Assembly: GCA_011620345.1 (NCBI GenBank)
Contig: WOZJ01000016.1
Location: 1 to 23,330, forward strand
DNA length: 23,330 nucleotides
Direction: 5' to 3'
Source: Nitrospirota bacterium
Lineage (GTDB): Bacteria > UBA2233
A program made the translations under genes and the position numbers. A model generated the notes under the pieces. It was not told the origin of the DNA, searched no databases, and worked only from the letters and a program-made list of their open reading frames with translations. The first letter of the stretch is position 1. The number at the start of each line of letters is the position of its first letter. Below are positions 890-21,566 of this stretch, in pieces.

Positions 890-1375
890 ATGAAAGTGTT
901 GGCTCGAACGATTGGAGGAATGGCCGCAGGGTTTGTATTTTTTGGCCTGCTTGGCTCATCATCCCTTGCCCAGACGCCTAGAGGCCCGGTGTATCAGTGG
1001 GGAACGGAGAAAACGCTCACGGGGACAATCAAAGAGGTCCAGACCACCCAAGGAAGACGGCCTGGAATGGTCGGCGTCCACCTGGCGGTTGACACCAAAG
1101 ACGGCGCCTTTACGGCGATGGTAGGGCCCTATCAGGCGTTGCAATCCCAAGGCTACGAGCCAAAAGAGGGTGATCAAGTCGAACTTCTGGGTTCCGTCCT
1201 CAAGATTAACGACCAGAACGTCATCATCGTGAAAACGTTGAAGGCATCGGGTAAAACGGTTGAGCTCCGTGACGCCCAAGGCTTTCCGCTTTGGATGAAA
1301 GGGCCTAGGATGGGAGGCCGCCCTGGAGCGTGGGGACCGCAGCCGGTCGCGCCCGGAACTCCTAGCTCCAAATAG
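890..1375 (+). CDS. Secreted protein of unknown function (paralogue 2)
   Basis: This 161-residue protein is a paralogue of the preceding gene. It has a signal peptide (residues 1-27, likely cleaved after SLA) followed by the same domain: TLTGTIKEVQ, RPGMVGVH, MVGPYQAL, KEGDQVELLG and ELRDAQGFPLW at about 38-143. The tail is short, Gly/Pro-rich and lacks the GTGV repeats. An excellent ribosome site, AAGGAGG at 878-884, sits 5 bases before the ATG. Only 31 bases separate the two genes, so they are almost surely cotranscribed from the promoter at 90-117 and end at the hairpin at 1387-1416. No catalytic motif is visible. A binding or structural role at the envelope is possible but unproven. Confidence 0.7.
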   Translation: MKVLARTIGGMAAGFVFFGLLGSSSLAQTPRGPVYQWGTEKTLTGTIKEVQTTQGRRPGMVGVHLAVDTKDGAFTAMVGPYQALQSQGYEPKEGDQVELLGSVLKINDQNVIIVKTLKASGKTVELRDAQGFPLWMKGPRMGGRPGAWGPQPVAPGTPSSK

Positions 1376-5377: not shown

Positions 5378-6097
5378 CTACTCCTTTGGGCCGGTTTGGC
5401 CTAGATTCTCTAAGGAAAGCATGCCACTTTTGGTGTCTATTCTTAAGCTTGCCCCCTGGAAGAGGTTCATCCCCAAAAGCCCCTGTAGGTCGTCTTTCCC
5501 GTTCGGATAGCCGGTGTCTTGTTTGAAGACGAGCACCGGAACCGCTCTCCATTCGTAAGGGCCGATGCGAAGCGTATCCAGCTCGACACGTCGAGCCTCG
5601 ATCCGGCCTCCGCCCGCGACCATGGCAAACGTCTTTTTGCCCTCATCCTCGGGGATCCCGAGCGAATCGGCAAACGTTTCCGTGATTGCCGTAGCGGTGG
5701 CTCCTGTATCCAGCAAGAAATTTCCACGCATCGGGCCGTACGATCTGTGGACGATCTCGACGGGCACCAAGACCTTTCGATCGCGTACGGATACCGGGGT
5801 GCTCGTCCCTTTGGCTAGGGCATCGCCTTGGAAAAAAGCCTTTCCGGATGGTGTTTGGGTTTTATCCTGCGCTTGTTTTGGCGTGCTGTCAGGCCTCAAA
5901 ACCTGCGTGGGGATATGCTCCACGCGCTGAGGCGTTTCTTTTACGACCCTGGTTGCGTCGTCGGTTATGACAAGCCTCCCTGCGGGGTCGGTGTAGCGGT
6001 AGAGCACGCCGGCCTCCAAGAAGCCAGGGACACAAAGAAGGGCTCCAAGAGATTCCAAGAGTCCAAAGAACACGCTATGATGCTTAAAGGTGCGCAC
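5378..6097 (-). CDS. Exported retropepsin-like aspartic protease, DUF4124-like N-terminus
   Basis: This 239-residue protein has a hydrophobic signal segment (about residues 9-29). A short DUF4124-like stretch follows (VLYRYTDPAGRLVITDD, 31-47), as in many proteobacterial envelope proteins, then a disordered Thr/Pro/Gln-rich linker (50-100). The C-terminal domain (about 105-235) is a single retropepsin-like fold: LLDTGATATAI with catalytic Asp at 130, the flap-like region VAGGGRIEA (160-168), and GLLGMNLF (207-213). Such single-domain proteases act as homodimers. It would act in the periplasm. The start is GTG at 6097, since a stop codon lies 9 codons upstream and no ATG is available. It heads the minus-strand operon, 6 bases before the YjbQ-family gene. 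Substrate unknown. Confidence 0.8.
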   Translation of the reverse strand: MRTFKHHSVFFGLLESLGALLCVPGFLEAGVLYRYTDPAGRLVITDDATRVVKETPQRVEHIPTQVLRPDSTPKQAQDKTQTPSGKAFFQGDALAKGTSTPVSVRDRKVLVPVEIVHRSYGPMRGNFLLDTGATATAITETFADSLGIPEDEGKKTFAMVAGGGRIEARRVELDTLRIGPYEWRAVPVLVFKQDTGYPNGKDDLQGLLGMNLFQGASLRIDTKSGMLSLENLGQTGPKE

Positions 6098-6197
6098 ACT
6101 GCCGCCTACGTGGAAATCGGTTTAGTACCAGTATAGCGCGTTCCCGTTGGCTTTCGGAAGCCGTGAAGAACGCCGGGATGAAAATATGGGGGGTTTC
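6098..6197. promoter_or_regulatory. Divergent intergenic region between the NAD operon and the pyr/thr gene string
   Basis: About 100 bases separate the two divergent start codons and must hold both promoters, unless these lie inside the coding regions. On the minus strand, TATACT at 6135-6130 is a 5/6 -10 box, but its -35 is poor. On the plus strand, TATAGC (6132-6137) overlaps it, also without a good -35. GGCTT (6149-6153) and AAGCC (6158-6162) make a small hairpin in the plus-strand leader with no following U run. I see no clear riboswitch or attenuator. Confidence 0.3.
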
Positions 6198-7181
6198 ATG
6201 AGAAAGGCAAAGGCCATCGTAGGTTGCATTCTGTGTGTAGCCATGTTCTCGGCGCGCGTCTTTGCGGCCGATTTAGACAGCGCCTTCCTAAAGAGGATGC
6301 TCGAGCGTCACAGTCCGCACCCGATGTTGAACATTGCAGACAGAGGGGCCAGCATGCTCGCCCCAGAGAACACGATTCCGGCCATCGAGAAAGCCTTTAT
6401 GCTCGGGGCGGACGTCGTTCGGGTCGGGGTTCATCTCACGAAGGACGAGGCCATCGTCGTCCTACAGGACCACGACTTGTCAAGGACGACGAACGTACGT
6501 AGCGTGTTCCCGAACCGGCGATCGGCTTTTGTGAGGGAATTTACGCTGTCCGAGGTCGGCCGTTTGGACGCGGGCGGCTATTTCGCGCGTGAGGACCCGT
6601 ACGGCACGATCAGGTCGGGCGCCGTTTCTCGTGAGGAGGCGAGGCTCTACGCCTCGGGTTCGGTCAAAGTCCCTACCTTAGACGAGGTCGTTACCCTGGC
6701 CAGGCGCTACGATGCCGCTTTGGACATCGAAATCCGCCAGCTGCCGGGGTTTTATCCAAAAATGGGGGAACTCGTTCTCGATTCCGTCAAGAGGGCCGGC
6801 ATGGAAGAGCGCGTGCTCATCTCGAGCCTCGACCATACGCTCCTGTATGAGATGAAAAAGAAAAATGCTAAGGTAGACTACGCGCCCGTCATGCTGGAGA
6901 GGCTTTACCTTCCGGGGCGCTACACGCGGGACAACTTGGGAATGCGTTCGCTTGAGCTGGCCTACGACCTTCTTGCCGTCGAGTTCGGCTATCCGAAGAA
7001 CGAGGCCGACTTTGCGGATGCCCTTAAGCGAAAGGTAGGGATGCTCGTGTGGGGCGCTAATGATGCCGAGACATTCCCCGTGCTCCTTCGGCTTGGCGTA
7101 GCGGGGGCCATCACCCAAAGGCCCGAGCTGCTCGAAGCCTATCTAGATAGGCTCTTTGGTGACGACGAGGGAAGAAGGTGA
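6198..7181 (+). CDS. Secreted GDPD-fold protein lacking most catalytic residues (probable pseudoenzyme)
   Basis: The 327-residue product has a signal peptide (1-24) and a TIM-barrel domain of the glycerophosphodiester phosphodiesterase family. The framework is clear: IADRGASMLAPENT (46-59), GADVVRVGVHLTKDE (70-84), VVLQDHDLSRTTN (87-99), LDIEIR (175-180) and VWGAND with a closing TQRPELL. Compared with the canonical HRG, ELDV and HD motifs, the first catalytic His is Asp48, the metal-binding Glu and Asp are Arg75 and Gly77, and the second catalytic His is Gln90. Only Glu178 of the metal ligands remains. Hydrolysis of glycerophosphodiesters is therefore doubtful. The start at 6198 is preferred over 6186 and a TTG at 6147 because a G-rich ribosome site precedes it and the signal peptide begins there. 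Its stop overlaps the pyrB GTG by 4 bases. Confidence 0.85.
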   Translation: MRKAKAIVGCILCVAMFSARVFAADLDSAFLKRMLERHSPHPMLNIADRGASMLAPENTIPAIEKAFMLGADVVRVGVHLTKDEAIVVLQDHDLSRTTNVRSVFPNRRSAFVREFTLSEVGRLDAGGYFAREDPYGTIRSGAVSREEARLYASGSVKVPTLDEVVTLARRYDAALDIEIRQLPGFYPKMGELVLDSVKRAGMEERVLISSLDHTLLYEMKKKNAKVDYAPVMLERLYLPGRYTRDNLGMRSLELAYDLLAVEFGYPKNEADFADALKRKVGMLVWGANDAETFPVLLRLGVAGAITQRPELLEAYLDRLFGDDEGRR

Positions 7182-8113
7182 AGCCCGTACCCCATTTTTT
7201 AGATATCGCCCCACTGCGTCTTGAGCTCCTCGAGCGGTTGATCGAGAGGGGCTTTTTTTTTAAGCGCATTGCAAGAGAGGCTCCAGAGCGGCTCAAAAGC
7301 CCCCTTTGCATGGAAAAAAGGCTTGTTTTGCTGTTCTTCGAGCCTTCTACCAGGACACGGACCTCGTTTTCGCTCGCGGCCAAACAGTTGGGGTTCGACC
7401 TCCAACCGTTGGAACCCGGCTCAATGAGCCTCGTAAAAGGCGAGAAGTTGGTCGAGAACTTTTTAAACCTAGGAAAGTTGGGGTTCGACGTGGCCGTCGT
7501 TAGGCATCCCAGCTCGGGCGCCCTCCACTTTTTGAGCCGTCATATCGGGGTGAGCCTAGTCAACGCGGGTGATGGCTGTCATGCCCACCCAAGCCAGGCG
7601 CTTCTGGACCTGATGACGATCAAGGAAAGGTTTGGAGAGCTCAAGGGACTCCGCGTGGGCATCGTGGGAGACGTGGCAAAGAGCAGGGTGGCGCGCTCGG
7701 ATATACACGCCCTAAAGAAGTTCGGGGCAACCGTTTCTTTGATCGGCCCGCCGCACTTCGTACCCGATACCTTGGAAGGACCGGGCGTCAAGGTGAGCCA
7801 TGACTTGGACGGCCTGCTTAAAGGCCTCGATGTCCTTGTGATGCTCCGCATCCAGACAGAACGGGCCGCCTACGACCCTCTACTTAGCCTTTCTTGGTAT
7901 CGGGAAGCCTACGCGATCACGCTCGATAGGTTTTCTAGCCTTCCTGGCCATGCGATCGTCCTGCATCCAGGACCGGTATCGTTAGGCATTGAGATGGACG
8001 AGGAGGTCTTAAAGCTCGATCGTTGCCTTTCCTACACGCAGGTTGAGAACGGGGTTTTTGCCAGGATGGCGGTTCTTGAATGGGCTATGGAAGGAAGAGG
8101 ACGGTGCTGTTGA
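7178..8113 (+). CDS. pyrB: Aspartate carbamoyltransferase, catalytic subunit
   Basis: PyrB transfers carbamoyl from carbamoyl phosphate to aspartate, the first committed step of pyrimidine synthesis. At 311 residues it is of normal length for a catalytic chain. It shows the carbamoyl-phosphate loop FFEPSTRTRTSF (53-64), a Ser/Lys loop LVKGEKL (85-91), HPSQALLDLMTI (137-148), and HPGPVSLGIEM (263-273) in place of the more common HPGPINRG. It begins with GTG, whose bases overlap the stop of the GDPD-like gene, with a purine-rich ribosome site in that gene's end. No pyrI regulatory chain is visible. The CarA/CarB products encoded just downstream supply its substrate. Confidence 0.96.
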   Translation: MKPVPHFLDIAPLRLELLERLIERGFFFKRIAREAPERLKSPLCMEKRLVLLFFEPSTRTRTSFSLAAKQLGFDLQPLEPGSMSLVKGEKLVENFLNLGKLGFDVAVVRHPSSGALHFLSRHIGVSLVNAGDGCHAHPSQALLDLMTIKERFGELKGLRVGIVGDVAKSRVARSDIHALKKFGATVSLIGPPHFVPDTLEGPGVKVSHDLDGLLKGLDVLVMLRIQTERAAYDPLLSLSWYREAYAITLDRFSSLPGHAIVLHPGPVSLGIEMDEEVLKLDRCLSYTQVENGVFARMAVLEWAMEGRGRCC

Positions 8114-9402
8114 TTCGAAACGGCTACCTTATCGACCCGGAGGGAGGACACACGGGCCCCGGCCAGCTACTCATGGCCAAGGACAGGGTTGTCGCCGTCT
8201 TGGGGCCGAACGAGCCGGTGAATGCAGGGATGCTTGAACGGACGCTCGATGCCAAGGGGTGCCTTGTAACGCCCGCATTCCTCGATTTGCACGCCCATTT
8301 AAGGGAGCCTGGGTTCGAGCACAAAGAAGACATTGCTTCAGGCCTGAAATCAGCCGTTGCGGGCGGGTTCGGGTATGTCTGTGCCATGCCGAATACCTCT
8401 CCCGTGAACGACAACCCGATCGTGACCCACTATTTGTTGCAGAAGGCCAAGGCCTTGGGTTTGAGCGAGCTTCTCCCCGTTGGTGCGGCAACGCTTTCTC
8501 AAAAGGGCGAAAGGCTAACCGATTTCCACGCCCTTCTGAAGGCCGGCTGCGTGGGCTTCTCGGATGACGGCCGGTCGATCGACGACCCCTTGGTTTTTCA
8601 AGACGCCCTCATTTACACGGGCCAGCTCGATACGGTACTGTTCGAACACGCGGAATCGAAACGTTTGGGCGGGTATCGGGGGATTCATGCGGGCATCGTC
8701 GCCGCATCCCTGGGCCTCGAGGGCTCTAGTGCTCTTTCTGAAACGGCGGTGGTAGCCAGGGACGTGGAAATCCTAAGGCATGCCAAAGGCAGGCTCCACC
8801 TAACCCACATCTCCGCCAAGGGCTCGCTTTCTTACGTTCGTACTGCCAAGGAAGAGGGGCTTGGGCTCAGCGTTGACGTGACCCCGCACCATTTGCTGCT
8901 CACCGAAGAGGCGCTGGCGGGTTTCAACACGACTCCCAAGGTGAACCCGCCTCTACGCATGGAGGAGGACCGGCTTGCCCTCCTCCATGCTCTAAAGGAA
9001 GGGCTGATCGATGCGATTGCCACCGATCATGCCCCGCATACGCAAAGAGAGAAGGACACGTATTTTGAGGATGCCCCGCCCGGCGTGATCGGGTTTGAAA
9101 GCGCGTTCCCGGCCCTTTATGGCCTCGTGGAAAAAGGAGAGCTTGGGCTCGAAAAGCTCGTTTCTTTGCTGAGCATAGGCCCTGCGGGGGTGTTCGGGAT
9201 TAAGGGCATTGGGCTGAAGCAGGGCTCCCTCCCGAACCTAGGGGTATGGCGGGTGCTCAAAGAACCCTCGCCCCTTCCTCCTGCGCGCTATTCAAAAGGG
9301 AAAAACTGCCCGTTTGTGGGGGTCGAAACGAAAATCAAGCTTCAGGCGTTTATAGCCGACGGGAGGGTGGTCTACGAGCATGAAAGGGGTTTTGGCGCTT
9401 AA
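8104..9402 (+). CDS. pyrC: Dihydroorotase (class I)
   Basis: PyrC cyclises carbamoyl aspartate to dihydroorotate. The 432-residue amidohydrolase has the metal motif DLHAHLREPG (H63, H65), MPNTSPVND (95-103), FSDDGRSI (152-159, including the Asp that replaces the carboxylated Lys in this class), HIS (235-237), DVTPHHL (258-264) and ATDHAPH (306-312, Asp308). These look intact, so it is predicted active. GTG at 8104 is chosen as start because GGAAGAGG precedes it and the protein opens with the usual LLIRNGYLIDP; an ATG at 8080 would add eight atypical residues. It overlaps the pyrB end by 10 bases and carA by 23 bases, which implies translational coupling. Confidence 0.95.
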   Translation: MLLIRNGYLIDPEGGHTGPGQLLMAKDRVVAVLGPNEPVNAGMLERTLDAKGCLVTPAFLDLHAHLREPGFEHKEDIASGLKSAVAGGFGYVCAMPNTSPVNDNPIVTHYLLQKAKALGLSELLPVGAATLSQKGERLTDFHALLKAGCVGFSDDGRSIDDPLVFQDALIYTGQLDTVLFEHAESKRLGGYRGIHAGIVAASLGLEGSSALSETAVVARDVEILRHAKGRLHLTHISAKGSLSYVRTAKEEGLGLSVDVTPHHLLLTEEALAGFNTTPKVNPPLRMEEDRLALLHALKEGLIDAIATDHAPHTQREKDTYFEDAPPGVIGFESAFPALYGLVEKGELGLEKLVSLLSIGPAGVFGIKGIGLKQGSLPNLGVWRVLKEPSPLPPARYSKGKNCPFVGVETKIKLQAFIADGRVVYEHERGFGA

Positions 9403-10483
9403 ATCCGGGTTTTGGGTGACGGGAGAGCTCTTTGGCACGGCCGAAGAGTCCGTGGGCGAGGTGGTGTTCAACACGGCGCATGCGGGCTACCCCCAAGTCA
9501 TAACGGATCCGTCCTACTTGGGTCAGATTGTCACGTTCACATACCCGATGATCGGGAACTACGGCGTGCAGGCCGACGAGCTCGAATCGCCGAAGGTCCA
9601 CGCCTCCGGCGTCGTCGTAAGGCAGCTTTTTCGACCCTCATTCCATCCCAAAGCATCCTCGACGTTCGCCGAGTTTCTCGAAGAGCAAGGGGTTCCCGTG
9701 CTCTCTGGAGTCGACACCCGGATGCTTACAAGGCACTTGAGGGAGTATGGCTCGCTCATGGGCATCTTGGCCCCCTTTGAGCGAGAAGAAGACGTCGCAG
9801 GGGTTGTGGAGCGTGCCCGCGTTCTTGAGGGGCTCGAGGGCAAAGACCTGGTCAAGCAGGTACTCGTGGGCTCAAAAGAAGAAGTGTTCCACGCACAAAG
9901 CCGCCAAGACAAGGGTGAGGCAAGCCGCGGGCTTGTCCTTCTTTGCGATCTGGGGGCCAAGCACGGGATCGTCCGCGACTGGCTGTCTTTGGGGTTCGAC
10001 GTGCTGGCTTACCCTGGAGTGCCAGACTGGGACGTTGTGCGTGTCCATGCGCCTACGCTTGTTTGCCTATCGAACGGCCCAGGAGACCCGGCAGCGCTCA
10101 CGGGGGAGATCGAAAGGATCCGGTCTTTTTTGGGGAAAGTCCCCGTGTTCGGGATCTGTATGGGCCACCAGTTGCTCGCGCTCGCGCTAGGCGGCCGTAC
10201 TCAAAAGCTTAAATTCGGCCATCACGGCGTCAACCACCCCGTTGTAGAGCTTGAAACGCGCCGCGTGGTGATTACCTCGCAAAACCACTGCTACACGATT
10301 GTTCCAGAATCGCTCCCCAAGCACGTGCGTGTGACCCATAAAAGCCTCTACGACGGGACGATCGAGGGGATGGAGGTCTTAGATATGAGCCTTCAATCCG
10401 TTCAGTTCCACCCCGAGGCCAGCCCGGGTCCTCTCGACCCAAAATTCCTATACCGACGCTTCTTAGGGGCCATCCATGCCTAG
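9380..10483 (+). CDS. carA: Carbamoyl-phosphate synthase small subunit (glutamine amidotransferase)
   Basis: CarA hydrolyses glutamine and channels ammonia to CarB. The 367-residue protein has the N-terminal CPSase small-chain domain ([17 protein letters not shown], 30-46; [12 protein letters not shown], 110-121) and a C-terminal class I glutaminase with SNGPGDP (231-237), the nucleophile Cys260 in FGICMGHQ, and the His344/Glu346 pair in QFHPEASPG. The catalytic triad is therefore complete. It starts inside the end of pyrC and its last 8 bases overlap carB. Placement beside pyrB and pyrC suggests regulation with pyrimidine genes, although carbamoyl phosphate also feeds arginine synthesis. Confidence 0.97.
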
Positions 10484-13400
10484 AGATACATCCATCCAAA
10501 GCGTGCTCGTTCTTGGCTCCGGCCCCATAGTGATCGGCCAGGCGGCCGAGTTTGACTATTCGGGGACGCAAGCGCTAAGGGCTCTGCGCGAAGAAGGAAT
10601 CCGCACCATCCTCGTGAACTCGAACCCGGCGACGATCATGACCGACCCCGAGCTGGCCGACAAGACCTACATCGAGCCCCTCCTTCCCCAAATCGTCGCG
10701 TGCGTGATCGAAAAAGAGCGCCCGGACGCCCTCCTTCCGACTGTAGGCGGTCAGGTTGGCCTAAACCTCGCCATTGCGCTCGAAGAGGCGGGAGTGCTAT
10801 CGCGCTTTGGCGTCCGACTGATCGGGGCTCAGATAGGAAGCATCAAGAAGGCCGAGGACAGGGAGGCTTTCAAGCGCGCCATGGAACGTATCGGGCTAAA
10901 GGTCCCTCAAAGCCAAAAGGTCGGGACTGTTCAGGAGGCCAAGAAGACGCTCGAGCGAATCGGCCTTCCTGCCATCATCCGTCCCTCGTTCACGCTCGGC
11001 GGTTCCGGCGGTTCGATCGCGTACAACCTCGCTGAGTTCGAGCAGCTAGTTTTGCTTGGCCTTCAGGCCTCCCCTGTGCACGAGGTGTTGATCGAGCGCT
11101 ACCTCTTGGGCTGGAAGGAGTTTGAGCTCGAGGTCATGCGCGACAAGGCGGACAACGTCGTCGTCGTCTGTTCGATCGAAAACTTTGACCCTATGGGAAT
11201 CCACACGGGCGACTCGATCACGGTTGCCCCCATCCAAACGCTCACAGACAGGGAATACCAGGTTCTAAGGGACGCCGCCAAAGCGGTGATCCGGGAGATC
11301 GGCGTCGATACGGGAGGCTCGAACATCCAGTTTGCGATGGACCCGGGACATGAAGAGGTCATGGTGATCGAGATGAACCCTAGGGTCTCCAGGAGCTCCG
11401 CGCTGGCCTCCAAGGCTACAGGGTTCCCTATCGCCAAGATCGCCGCGAAGCTGGCCATAGGCTACACGCTAGACGAGATCCAAAACGACATCACCAAGGT
11501 GACGCCCGCCTCGTTCGAGCCCGCGATCGATTACGTCGTCGTGAAGATCCCGAGGTTTAACTTCGAGAAGTTCCCCGAGGCCGCTCCCTACCTCTCGCCC
11601 CAGATGAAGTCCGTGGGCGAGGCGATGGCGATCGGCCGGACGTTCCAAGAGGCGCTCCAAAAGGCCCTACGCTCGCTCGAGCTCGATTCCTACGGGTTCG
11701 ATTTGGTATCTAGGCTCTCTGGGCTGACTCCTGCCGAAAAAGAGCTTGAAATCATCCGCAGCCTCAAAGATGCATCCTGGGACAGGGTATGGATGATCGC
11801 CGAGGCGTTCCGTACCGGGCTTACCCTCGATTACGTCTACGGGTTGACCAAGATCGACAAGTGGTTTCTAAGCCAGATTCAGGACCTCGTCCAGTTTGAG
11901 GCCGAGCTCGAGTCGATCCACGACTTCCATGGGCTTCCCAAAGAAAGGCGCTACGAGATTCTTTCCAAATCCAAGCAGGCCGGGTTTTCGGACAACAGGC
12001 TTGCCCATCTGCTCCATAGCGACCCAAGCGGTATCGAGCGGCTTCGGGAGCAAGCCGGCATCGTCCCCGTTTATAAGGCCGTGGATACCTGCGCGGCCGA
12101 GTTCGAGGCGAAGACCCCGTACTTTTATTCGTGCTACCAAACCGAAGACGAGGTGCCGAAGTCGTCGACACCGGGCGTGGCGATCCTAGGGAGCGGCCCG
12201 AACCGGATCGGCCAGGGGATCGAGTTCGATTATTCGTGCGTGCACGGCGTGATGGCACTGAGAAGCTTGGGCATTCGTGCCGTGATGGTCAACTGCAACC
12301 CGGAAACGGTGAGCACCGACTACGACACCGTCGACAGGCTTTACTTCGAGCCGCTGTCTTTCGAGGACGTCCGGCATGTGCTGCTTGCCGAGCCGCTTCA
12401 GGGGGCCATTGTCCAGTTCGGCGGCCAGACGCCCCTGAAGCTCGCCATGGCGCTCGAAGCCTCCGGGTTTCGGCTGCTTGGCACCGATCCGGAGCATATC
12501 GATGCGGCCGAGGACAGGGAGAAGTTTAACGTCCTACTTCACGAGATAGGGCTCAAAACGCCGCGCAACGGGGTGGCCAGGAGTGTCGAGCGAGCGCTTG
12601 CCGTGGCCGAGGAGATCGGCTATCCCGTGCTTGTGCGCCCCTCCTATGTCTTAGGAGGCCGAGCGATGGAGGTCATCTACGAGGCTTCCAGCCTGCTTGG
12701 GTACTTGAATAGGAATACCAAGGTTAGCTTTGAGCACCCTTTGCTGATAGAGTCTTTCTTGGAGGACGCCATCGAGCTTGACGTCGACGCCGTGAGCGAC
12801 GGTAAGCACGTGTTCGTTCCCGCCATCATGCAGCACGTCGAGCTGGCTGGCATCCACTCGGGCGACAGCGCCTGCTCGATCCCGCCTTACGACCTTCCCG
12901 AAACGCTCGTTCAAGGCGTCTTGAAGGCGACCAAGGAGCTCGCCAGGAGGCTAGAAATCAAGGGGCTGTTAAACGTCCAATACGCCATACAGAATGGGGA
13001 AATTTATTGCTTGGAAGCCAACCCGAGGGCTTCACGCACCGTGCCGTTCGTAAGCAAGGCTTCCGGCGTGCCGCTCGCCAAGCTGGCCACGCGCGTCATT
13101 ATGGGCCAGAATTTAGATGCGCCCCAAGATTTGATCGCGCACAAAAAAGGGCTGTACTTCGTCAAGGAGGCCGTCTTCCCCTTCCTTAAGTTCCAGGAGG
13201 TGGACGCAATCCTTGGGCCAGAGATGAAATCGACGGGCGAGGTCATGGGCGTGGGGAGGAGCTTTTCTGAGGCCTACCTGAAGGCCCAATGGGCCGCAGG
13301 GTCGATCCTGCCCAAATCGGGCAAGGTGTTCTTGAGCGTGCGGGACGCGGACAAGCCAAGAATTGTGCCCGTCGCCAAAGGGCTCTTGGCGCTCGGGTTT

Positions 13401-13712
13401 GAGCTCATCGCCACGCGCGGGACGAAGGCTGTCCTGCAGGACCACGGCATCGAAGCTGCACAGGTCAACAAGGTTCACGAAGGGCGCCCCCACATCGTCG
13501 ATTTGCTCAAAGACGGACAGATCGGGGTTGTGATCAACACGCCCGAAGGCTCCGGGCCTGTCCTGGATTCCTTCGACATCAGGCGTGCCTGCTTGGTCTA
13601 CAACGTGCCCTACATGACGACGATCGCGGGCGCAAGGGCTGCGCTCGTTGCCTTGGAGGGCATGCATGATAAAATAGAAGTTCTTGCGCTCCAAGATTTT
13701 CATAACGCTTAG
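10476..13712 (+). CDS. carB: Carbamoyl-phosphate synthase large subunit
   Basis: CarB makes carbamoyl phosphate from bicarbonate, ammonia and two ATP. The 1078-residue length matches the family. The two homologous halves are clear: the first opens with [18 protein letters not shown] and SNPATIMTD, the second (around residue 568) with [18 protein letters not shown] and [15 protein letters not shown]-grasp signatures include [11 protein letters not shown] and [13 protein letters not shown], with [12 protein letters not shown] and [11 protein letters not shown]. The C-terminal MGS-like allosteric domain (about residue 945 to the end) contains [11 protein letters not shown] and TRGTKAVL. Nothing is truncated. 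The next gene follows after 17 bases, with a likely internal promoter in the last 70 bases of carB. Confidence 0.98.
13648..13675 (+). promoter_or_regulatory. Possible internal promoter in the 3' end of carB
   Basis: TTGCCT (13648-13653, 4/6 of the -35 consensus) is followed after 16 bases by TAAAAT (13670-13675, 5/6), and a TG one base upstream of the -10 (13667-13668) makes it an extended -10. It would start a transcript just before the DUF1858 gene and alaC, giving the threonine section its own control. Sequence match only. Confidence 0.35.
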
Positions 13713-19777: not shown

Positions 19778-20389
19778 ATGCGACTAGCGGTTGAACCGGA
19801 AAGGCCCCACGGAAGGTGGCTTGAGCGTGCCTTAGGGACGCTCAAAGAAGGTGGCATTGTTCTCATTCCCTCCGATTCTGGCTATGGGCTTGCTTGTTCG
19901 GTGTTGAGCCATGCTTCGATCGAGAAGCTAAGACAGGTCAAAGAGCTAGAAACGCAGAAATTTTTAACCCTGTTGTTTCCCGACCTTAAACGAATCGGCG
20001 AGTATGCTCAACTATCCGACTATGCCTTCAAAACAATCAAACGGGCGATCCCAGGGCCCTACACGTTCGTGTTGCAAGCCACAAAGAAAGTCCCAAAGCT
20101 CTTGGACACCAACCAAAGAACCGTCGGCATACGCATTCCGGACCATCCCGTGACCCTTGCGGTGCTCAAGGAGCTCGAAGAACCCCTTGTTCACTCCTCT
20201 TTCCCTTCGGGAGAGGCGTTGTATACCGATCCGGTGGAAATAGAGAATCGCATGAGAAAGCAACTCGACCTACTTTTGGATGTAGGCATTCTCCCCGTTA
20301 CTCCCACGACCGTGGTGGATTTGAGTCAAGAACCCTACATGATCCTTAGACAAGGACAAGGCGATGCATCCTGGATCGTTGGCGCTTAA
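19778..20389 (+). CDS. yciO: YciO-type Sua5/YrdC-family protein
   Basis: This 203-residue protein is of the Sua5/YrdC/YciO fold. The family includes TsaC, which makes threonylcarbamoyl-AMP for the t6A tRNA modification. Its motifs resemble YciO more than TsaC: IPSDSGYGLAC near the N-terminus (YciO has TDSGYAL), the nucleotide-site segment AIPGPYTFVLQATKKVP, GIRIPDHPV and PTTVVDLSQEP near the end. The role of YciO itself is unsettled. The start at 19778 is chosen because an AAAAAGGG site precedes it; a TTG at 19721 would lie inside glpX. It ends within the first codons of the phosphoesterase-like gene (26-base overlap). The threonine-synthesis genes upstream are a suggestive but indirect link to t6A chemistry. 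Confidence 0.85.
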   Translation: MRLAVEPERPHGRWLERALGTLKEGGIVLIPSDSGYGLACSVLSHASIEKLRQVKELETQKFLTLLFPDLKRIGEYAQLSDYAFKTIKRAIPGPYTFVLQATKKVPKLLDTNQRTVGIRIPDHPVTLAVLKELEEPLVHSSFPSGEALYTDPVEIENRMRKQLDLLLDVGILPVTPTTVVDLSQEPYMILRQGQGDASWIVGA

Positions 20390-21566
20390 GGCCGGATTTT
20401 GCCTTTTTTTGGTGTTGTTTGCGGGCGTTGGTCCTCTTGGGGCCATCGATGAAGACGAAATCTTGGCGGGCCCTTACCTCACCAACCTGAGGCCCGCGCA
20501 CGTAACGGTGAACTACGAAGTCAGCCGGCCTGTGCTGGGATGGGTGCAGTTCGATACCGAGGGGCATTTCGACTCGGGATGGAACTACACGCACGGATAC
20601 CCTCCGGAAGATGTCCTTTCCGACATCCACCACATCACGCTGCCAGGGCTCTTAGACGACGAACGGTATTACTACTCGATCACGCTCAAGGACCCAAACG
20701 ACGATCGGGACTACGGGTTTTTCGATTACTCGCTGAAGACGGCTCCAGAGAAAGGCCAGGCCGAGGTCAGCTTCCGAATCGGCGTGTACGGGGATTGCTA
20801 CGGCAACCCATCGCTGCTTAGGCGGGTATCGGACGATATCAGTTCGGAAGACGACATGATCGCGGCATTCTTGGTGGGTGACATCCTTCCTCCCGATTAC
20901 TCCGAAACGGCCTGGAGGGACTTTTTCTACGGCGTGGAGTATCTTGGCGCGGAAAAGGCGATCTTTCCATTAAAGGGCGCCAACGAAGCGAGCGGGGAGG
21001 CTGCCAAAGCGTTCGATCGTTACTTCCCGTTGATAGAAGGCCCGCTGGATACCCCAAAGACCTTTGGCTACCACAGCTTTGATTGGGGGGTTTTGCACTT
21101 GATCGTGCTGGATACGCTCAAGATGGACGAGGCTCAAGCAAGCTGGCTTGAGCAAGACCTCCAGGGTTCCGCCTCAGCGCCATACGTACTCGTTTTCCTC
21201 CATCAACCCGTTGAGGAGCTTGATAGGGGGATGGCAGGAAGGCTCGAGGGGTTGTTTGCCAGGAACAAGGTTTCTGTCGTGTTTTCGGGCGGCGATGGAG
21301 ATTTTCGGCTCGAAGAGCGCTCTGGGGTTCATTATGTCAATACCGGTTCGTTGACACAGCCAGCCCAGGAAAGCCGTCCCGTTCCCTCGGAGGGAAAAGG
21401 GCTTGTCTTGAGAGATGCCATACCTTACGTTTCTTTCCAGGTTGGCGAAGAAGGGGATGTCTGGTTGGAGGTGATCAGCATGGGTAGCCTAAGCCCAGAT
21501 GGCCAGGTGAAGCGCGATCGCAATAGCGTCCAGAAGCTCCAGATTCTGCCTAGAAACGTGCCATAA
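20364..21566 (+). CDS. Exported purple-acid-phosphatase-like protein with degenerate metal site
   Basis: This 400-residue protein starts with a signal peptide (hydrophobic core 8-26, Ala27 near the cleavage site). Residues about 34-127 look like the FnIII-like domain of purple acid phosphatases (GPYLTNLRPAHVTVNYEV; HHITLPGLLDDERYYYSI). Residues about 134-370 follow the calcineurin-like phosphoesterase order: GVYGDCYG (Asp144), FLVGDILP (Asp173), PLKGANEAS where GNHE is expected (205-208), VFLHQPV (His280), and SGGDGDFR where GHxH is expected (309-312). The two aspartates and one His are kept, while the GNHE Asn/His and both GHxH His are gone, so a normal dinuclear centre seems impossible. It may be inactive or differently wired. 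The ATG overlaps yciO by 26 bases, with AAGGACAAGG upstream. Periplasmic or surface location. Confidence 0.7.
   Translation: MHPGSLALKAGFCLFLVLFAGVGPLGAIDEDEILAGPYLTNLRPAHVTVNYEVSRPVLGWVQFDTEGHFDSGWNYTHGYPPEDVLSDIHHITLPGLLDDERYYYSITLKDPNDDRDYGFFDYSLKTAPEKGQAEVSFRIGVYGDCYGNPSLLRRVSDDISSEDDMIAAFLVGDILPPDYSETAWRDFFYGVEYLGAEKAIFPLKGANEASGEAAKAFDRYFPLIEGPLDTPKTFGYHSFDWGVLHLIVLDTLKMDEAQASWLEQDLQGSASAPYVLVFLHQPVEELDRGMAGRLEGLFARNKVSVVFSGGDGDFRLEERSGVHYVNTGSLTQPAQESRPVPSEGKGLVLRDAIPYVSFQVGEEGDVWLEVISMGSLSPDGQVKRDRNSVQKLQILPRNVP

Follow-up and report, generated by a model that had tools for sequence, protein, structure and literature searches.

A putative exported GDPD-fold pseudoenzyme at the head of the pyr genes in a Candidatus Cutipiota genome

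The gene at positions 6198–7181 of the window (the whole 23,330-nt stretch of contig WOZJ01000016.1, assembly GCA_011620345.1, that was analysed) is best explained as encoding an exported protein of GDPD fold that no longer hydrolyses glycerophosphodiesters and is retained for a role other than catalysis, presumably with a metal-free pocket for an anion or phospho-ligand; we put the probability of this reading at roughly 55%. The same replacements in both species of the phylum, purifying selection, the selective loss of catalytic positions, and an intact barrel all speak for it. The initial annotation had proposed a pseudoenzyme, and that part stands on the same evidence, while the link to pyrimidine metabolism that it raised does not. 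The protein represents a clean natural case of a framework kept and a chemistry stripped under ordinary selection, and the canonical and partly degenerate members of its subfamily make the active-site loss testable at the bench. The features discussed are collected in Table 1.

Table 1. Coordinates of the gene, its predicted protein features and the neighbouring pyr genes in the window.
Feature	Positions	Strand	Basis or remark
Putative GDPD-fold pseudoenzyme, 327 aa	6198..7181	+	PF03009 match, AlphaFold2 model, fold match to GDPDs
Predicted signal peptide, residues 1-23 (MRKAK...VFA-AD)	6198..6266	+	Read from sequence: hydrophobic core, AxA-type site
TIM-barrel GDPD domain, residues 42-317	6321..7148	+	Range aligned to 2pz0; secondary-structure elements in order
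Asp48 in place of canonical His; Arg49 of the HRG motif (Lys in sister species)	6339..6344	+	
Arg75-Val-Gly77 replacing metal-binding Glu-x-Asp	6420..6428	+	
Gln90 replacing catalytic His of HD	6465..6467	+	
Subfamily insert (FPxR ... EDPYGTIRSGxVSxEEA)	6495..6665	+	Common to relatives from the second phylum
Glu178 (metal ligand, kept) and Arg180 (canonical Lys)	6729..6737	+	
pyrB, pyrC, carA, carB, each overlapping the next	7178..13712	+	Gene context, not thought part of the mechanism

The protein matched the GDPD profile PF03009 with an E-value of 1.2e-27 and 98 bits against a cut-off of 23.6, covering positions 2–243 of the 244 in the profile, and this match above the curated cut-off together with the GDPD-type TIM barrel places it in the PF03009 sequence and fold family. 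It was the only PF03009 gene found in its own genome, which is 97% complete and also encodes a glycerol kinase. Its N-terminus reads as a short positive stretch, a hydrophobic segment, and a VFA-AD cleavage-type site, and a difference of 4 nt in the length of the upstream region between the two species favours the ATG at 6198 over the TTG at 6147 as the start. Structure prediction agreed with the preserved fold described in the initial annotation: an AlphaFold2 model from a six-sequence alignment (mean pLDDT 76, pTM 0.80, and above 90 in residue blocks 71–90 and 171–180) formed an intact GDPD barrel whose best structural match was the GDPD of T. tengcongensis, 2pz0 (Z 31.1, rmsd 2.1 over 239 residues). 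In this predicted model, the substituted positions fall on, or immediately after, the expected strands (44–48, 73–80, 86–88, and 174–179).

Direct reading of the residues bore out the claim of a GDPD framework with D48-R-G, R75-V-G77, and Q90-D, in which only Glu178 of the expected ligands is left. The replacements are H48D, E75R, D77G, and H90Q, the phosphate-binding Lys has become Arg180, and the signature of active GDPDs (HR...EN, E-x-D, HD) is absent; in both species neither catalytic His survives and only one of the three metal ligands remains, and the protein and its sister ortholog have a basic residue at each of positions 49 and 180. The comparison set consisted of 66 other GDPDs picked by similarity to this protein, leaving out the f268 branch described below and one outlier, so that the p-values are indicative. 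All 12 non-catalytic positions conserved at 90% or more were kept, while five of the seven catalytic ones had changed (Fisher p 0.0018); at 85% or more, the counts were 16 of 16 kept and again five of seven changed (p 0.0006). One of the five changes is the conservative Lys to Arg. By this alignment-based measure, catalytic positions are lost selectively, beyond chance.

The phylum UBA2233 comprises two genomes, the other being Nitrospirae bacterium UBA2233; a review names it Candidatus Cutipiota and describes two genomes of 1.8–1.89 Mb from oil-contaminated soil and a tailings pond (PMC11382960). The sister-species ortholog is 93% identical, shares Asp48, Arg75, Gly77, Gln90, Glu178, and Arg180, and has Lys at residue 49. 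The D/R/G/Q pattern is therefore the same in both species of the phylum, and the only close homologue found does not keep H/E/D/H, a combination that the initial annotation would have taken as a sign of recent decay or sequence error. Between the two species, dN/dS was 0.15–0.17 for the GDPD gene, 0.17–0.21 for nadA, 0.14–0.16 for pyrC, and about 0.07 for carB. The stripped form is fixed and maintained, since the ortholog carries the same replacements at a dN/dS like that of nadA and pyrC; being found in two closely related genomes only, its conservation in the clade spans a short time.

Relatives were sought in two largely overlapping samples of 386 and 384 genomes across the domain, and in these the subfamily occurred only in Cutipiota and one second phylum (that of genome G101), where 38 of 100 genomes had a member at an E-value of 1e-15 or better. 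Searches of viral, plasmid, and phage collections returned no close relative of the protein. Two viral contigs of about 349 and 290 kb (L113 and L114) encode GDPD-like proteins with SHAxxWDGP at the position of the HRG motif. An insert after RTTN (FPxR ... DPFGxIxxGxVS) is common to the window protein and the second-phylum relatives, occurring in L032–L034 and L061–L087, and the FPxR...DPxGTI insert together with the tree grouping makes the window protein a member of the subfamily. In the tree, the window protein and its ortholog (the window pair) fall within the subfamily, which is split from the outgroups at 94/84, and outside the other members (a 100/97 group), on a long branch.

Among the second-phylum families, f101, f261, and f265 carry the canonical signature, and in f268 (L061–L072) HRG is replaced by HAG and E-x-D mostly by G-x-D, with both His, Asp77, Glu178, and nearly always Lys180 kept (one member has Ile). 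Two of its members, L063 and L064, retain Glu75 and represent an intermediate state; L124 and L097 also belong to this branch. The HRG arginine was, judging from these sequences, apparently lost on more than one occasion, because the paralogous GDPDs L121 and L122, with HAG and intact ELD, HD, and E-x-K, are placed elsewhere in the tree. The loss in f268 is apparently independent of that in the window pair. A single loss uniting the two was considered and is disfavoured, a common origin receiving an AU p of 0.053 with fewer rows and 0.014 with more rows, a result that is not final since the long branch makes the placement uncertain. The window protein is best explained as having arisen from a subfamily of hydrolases, whose members elsewhere among bacteria can be encoded beside an ABC-type uptake system; in L059 the canonical relative stands downstream of genes for a solute-binding protein and two ABC permeases, giving the order binding protein-permease-permease-GDPD.

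Canonical hydrolysis by the window protein is very unlikely, because the equivalents of Glu78, His93, and His51 of Staphylococcus aureus LpgD and one further ligand are jointly absent. Single-residue changes are already crippling in real GDPDs: LpgD E78A and H93A are deficient (PMC10404611), and Ala at any of the three metal ligands inactivates ttGDPD (PMC4926365). Losing just the first His would not be enough to inactivate the enzyme, since LpgD H51A is impaired yet retains activity (PMC10404611). Since Glu75 and Asp77 are missing and position 75 is now Arg, a divalent metal would no longer be bound, and the Arg75 guanidinium may supply the positive charge that the metal formerly gave. Arg/Lys49, Arg75, and Arg180, set against Asp48 and Glu178, would leave a metal-free, slightly basic pocket with a formal charge close to that of the former metal and its ligands, which, in its extracytoplasmic location, could hold but not cleave a ligand that is anionic or carries phosphate. 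Judged from these residues, the pocket probably still binds such a ligand: the exchange of acidic metal ligands for Arg and Gly, the basic phosphate-side residues in both species, and the roughly unchanged formal charge of the pocket favour a metal-free anion or phospho-ligand site, although the charge argument has few changes behind it. The basic residues at 49 and 180 in the window pair are as expected if anion binding is kept.

The main rival, possible but clearly less probable, is that the barrel is a non-catalytic scaffold for extracytoplasmic protein-protein contacts whose old pocket holds no ligand. Conservation of the entire fold despite active-site loss would suit such a role, as would the context of the partly degenerate f268, which in several genomes is flanked by a TatT-like TPR protein (PF16811) on one side and an uncharacterised secreted protein on the other; the window protein's own genome has four TatT-like genes. 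However, the window offers no recognised partner, and the basic residues persist at 49 and 180. New chemistry, in which Asp48, Arg75, Gln90, Glu178, and Arg180 would catalyse a different, metal-independent reaction, appears doubtful. TIM barrels often gain new reactions, and this general tendency counts in its favour, as do the replacements themselves, which are charged rather than merely small or inert and are fixed in both species; yet the residues form no recognised catalytic constellation. The initial annotation had suggested that Asp48 and a "shifted" His92 might build a new site, which found no support, His92 being ordinary in the family (HDHT in the active-type L040 and L014), and His79 is likewise ordinary in active GDPDs. 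Still less probable is that some GDPD or cyclic-phosphate activity survives with the metal arranged differently: Glu178 is kept, and LpgD mutants without His93 or Glu78 still act slowly on the cyclic intermediate (PMC10404611), but here four key positions are jointly lost, where one metal ligand changed to Ala suffices to inactivate ttGDPD (PMC4926365).

The position of the gene had invited comparison with pyrR, and a pyrimidine-synthesis regulator replacing it in front of the pyr genes would account for a first gene with a 4-nt pyrB overlap and an order (GDPD-pyrB-pyrC-carA-carB) identical in both species; moreover, the Pribosyltran matches in its own genome, read by eye, were Hpt, Prs, ComF, Upp, PurF, and PyrE, with no PyrR. 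A pyrR-like role is nevertheless unlikely on sequence grounds, because a signal peptide is present and gene overlaps are the rule here, and the pyrR stand-in as a whole we regard as highly improbable. The pyrB overlap says little about function, as eight of the 12 other adjacent gene pairs downstream also overlap when the longest open frames are taken. No pyrB was seen near the sampled subfamily loci outside the genus, many of which lie on short contigs, no Rfam element was found in the window, and promoter and terminator scans gave no excess over shuffles. A PyrR-type regulator has a phosphoribosyltransferase fold and binds RNA in the cytoplasm; this protein has a GDPD barrel and, as read from its sequence, an export signal, and the proposed link to pyrimidine control is accordingly left unsupported. 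A decaying gene or a sequence error can be dismissed: the long branch to relatives, at 2.2 changes per column, would fit, but the frame is intact in two separate assemblies, the non-catalytic core is wholly kept, and the sister ortholog with the same replacements and the dN/dS of 0.15–0.17 rule it out.

Other secreted proteins are encoded in the window. The gene at 20364–21566 (+) encodes a secreted purple-acid-phosphatase-like protein in which GNH(E/D) has become GANE and GHxH has become GGDG. It had no Pfam match above cut-off (Pur_ac_phosph_N, E 0.056) and aligns with metallophosphoesterases of other genomes; GD, GDxx, and a VxxH-type His are retained, GANE and GGDG are identical in the sister species (L126), and L127, L128, L129, L131, and L132 retain the GNH(E/D) and H-x-H residues. 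Two secreted phosphoesterase folds with selective metal-site loss within 23 kb suggest a common theme, which is not proof. That Candidatus Cutipiota turned several secreted phosphoesterases, this protein and the GDPD included, into metal-free phospho-ligand binders by selectively losing metal and catalytic residues from folds unrelated to each other is a speculative and rather unlikely extension. Not every secreted protein encoded here has lost its active site, since the aspartic protease-like neighbour at 5378–6097 keeps its DTG motif. Two adjacent secreted paralogs at 187–858 and 890–1375 (+) gave weak matches, far under cut-off, to the model of the magnetosome protein MamS.

When compared to known systems, no described bacterial GDPD pseudoenzyme was found among the open-access papers searched. 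The window protein resembles the T. tengcongensis GDPD (2pz0, PF03009) in its fold, in the PENT, RTTN, and LDAG motifs, and in the third metal ligand Glu178; it differs in its substitutions at the two catalytic His and at two of the three metal ligands, in the change of Lys to Arg, and in the long insert after RTTN. With the canonical subfamily GDPDs (f101, L032–L034), which are UgpQ-like in gene context, it shares this insert, 39–46% identity, and an N-terminal hydrophobic segment. In contrast, those proteins retain H/R/E/D/H/E/K, and in one case (L059) the gene is preceded by those for a binding protein and two permeases, whereas the window protein is stripped and heads the pyr genes. Family f268 has the same subfamily insert and, in some members, the tail LDRLFGxDE, but it has lost Arg49 (HAG) and mostly Glu75 while retaining both His, Asp77, and Glu178. 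Finally, the GDPD-like sphingomyelinase D/PLD enzymes of spider venom and bacteria have the same barrel as the window model (Z about 16–17). These enzymes retain the His pair and the acidic metal ligands, both of which are gone in the window protein.
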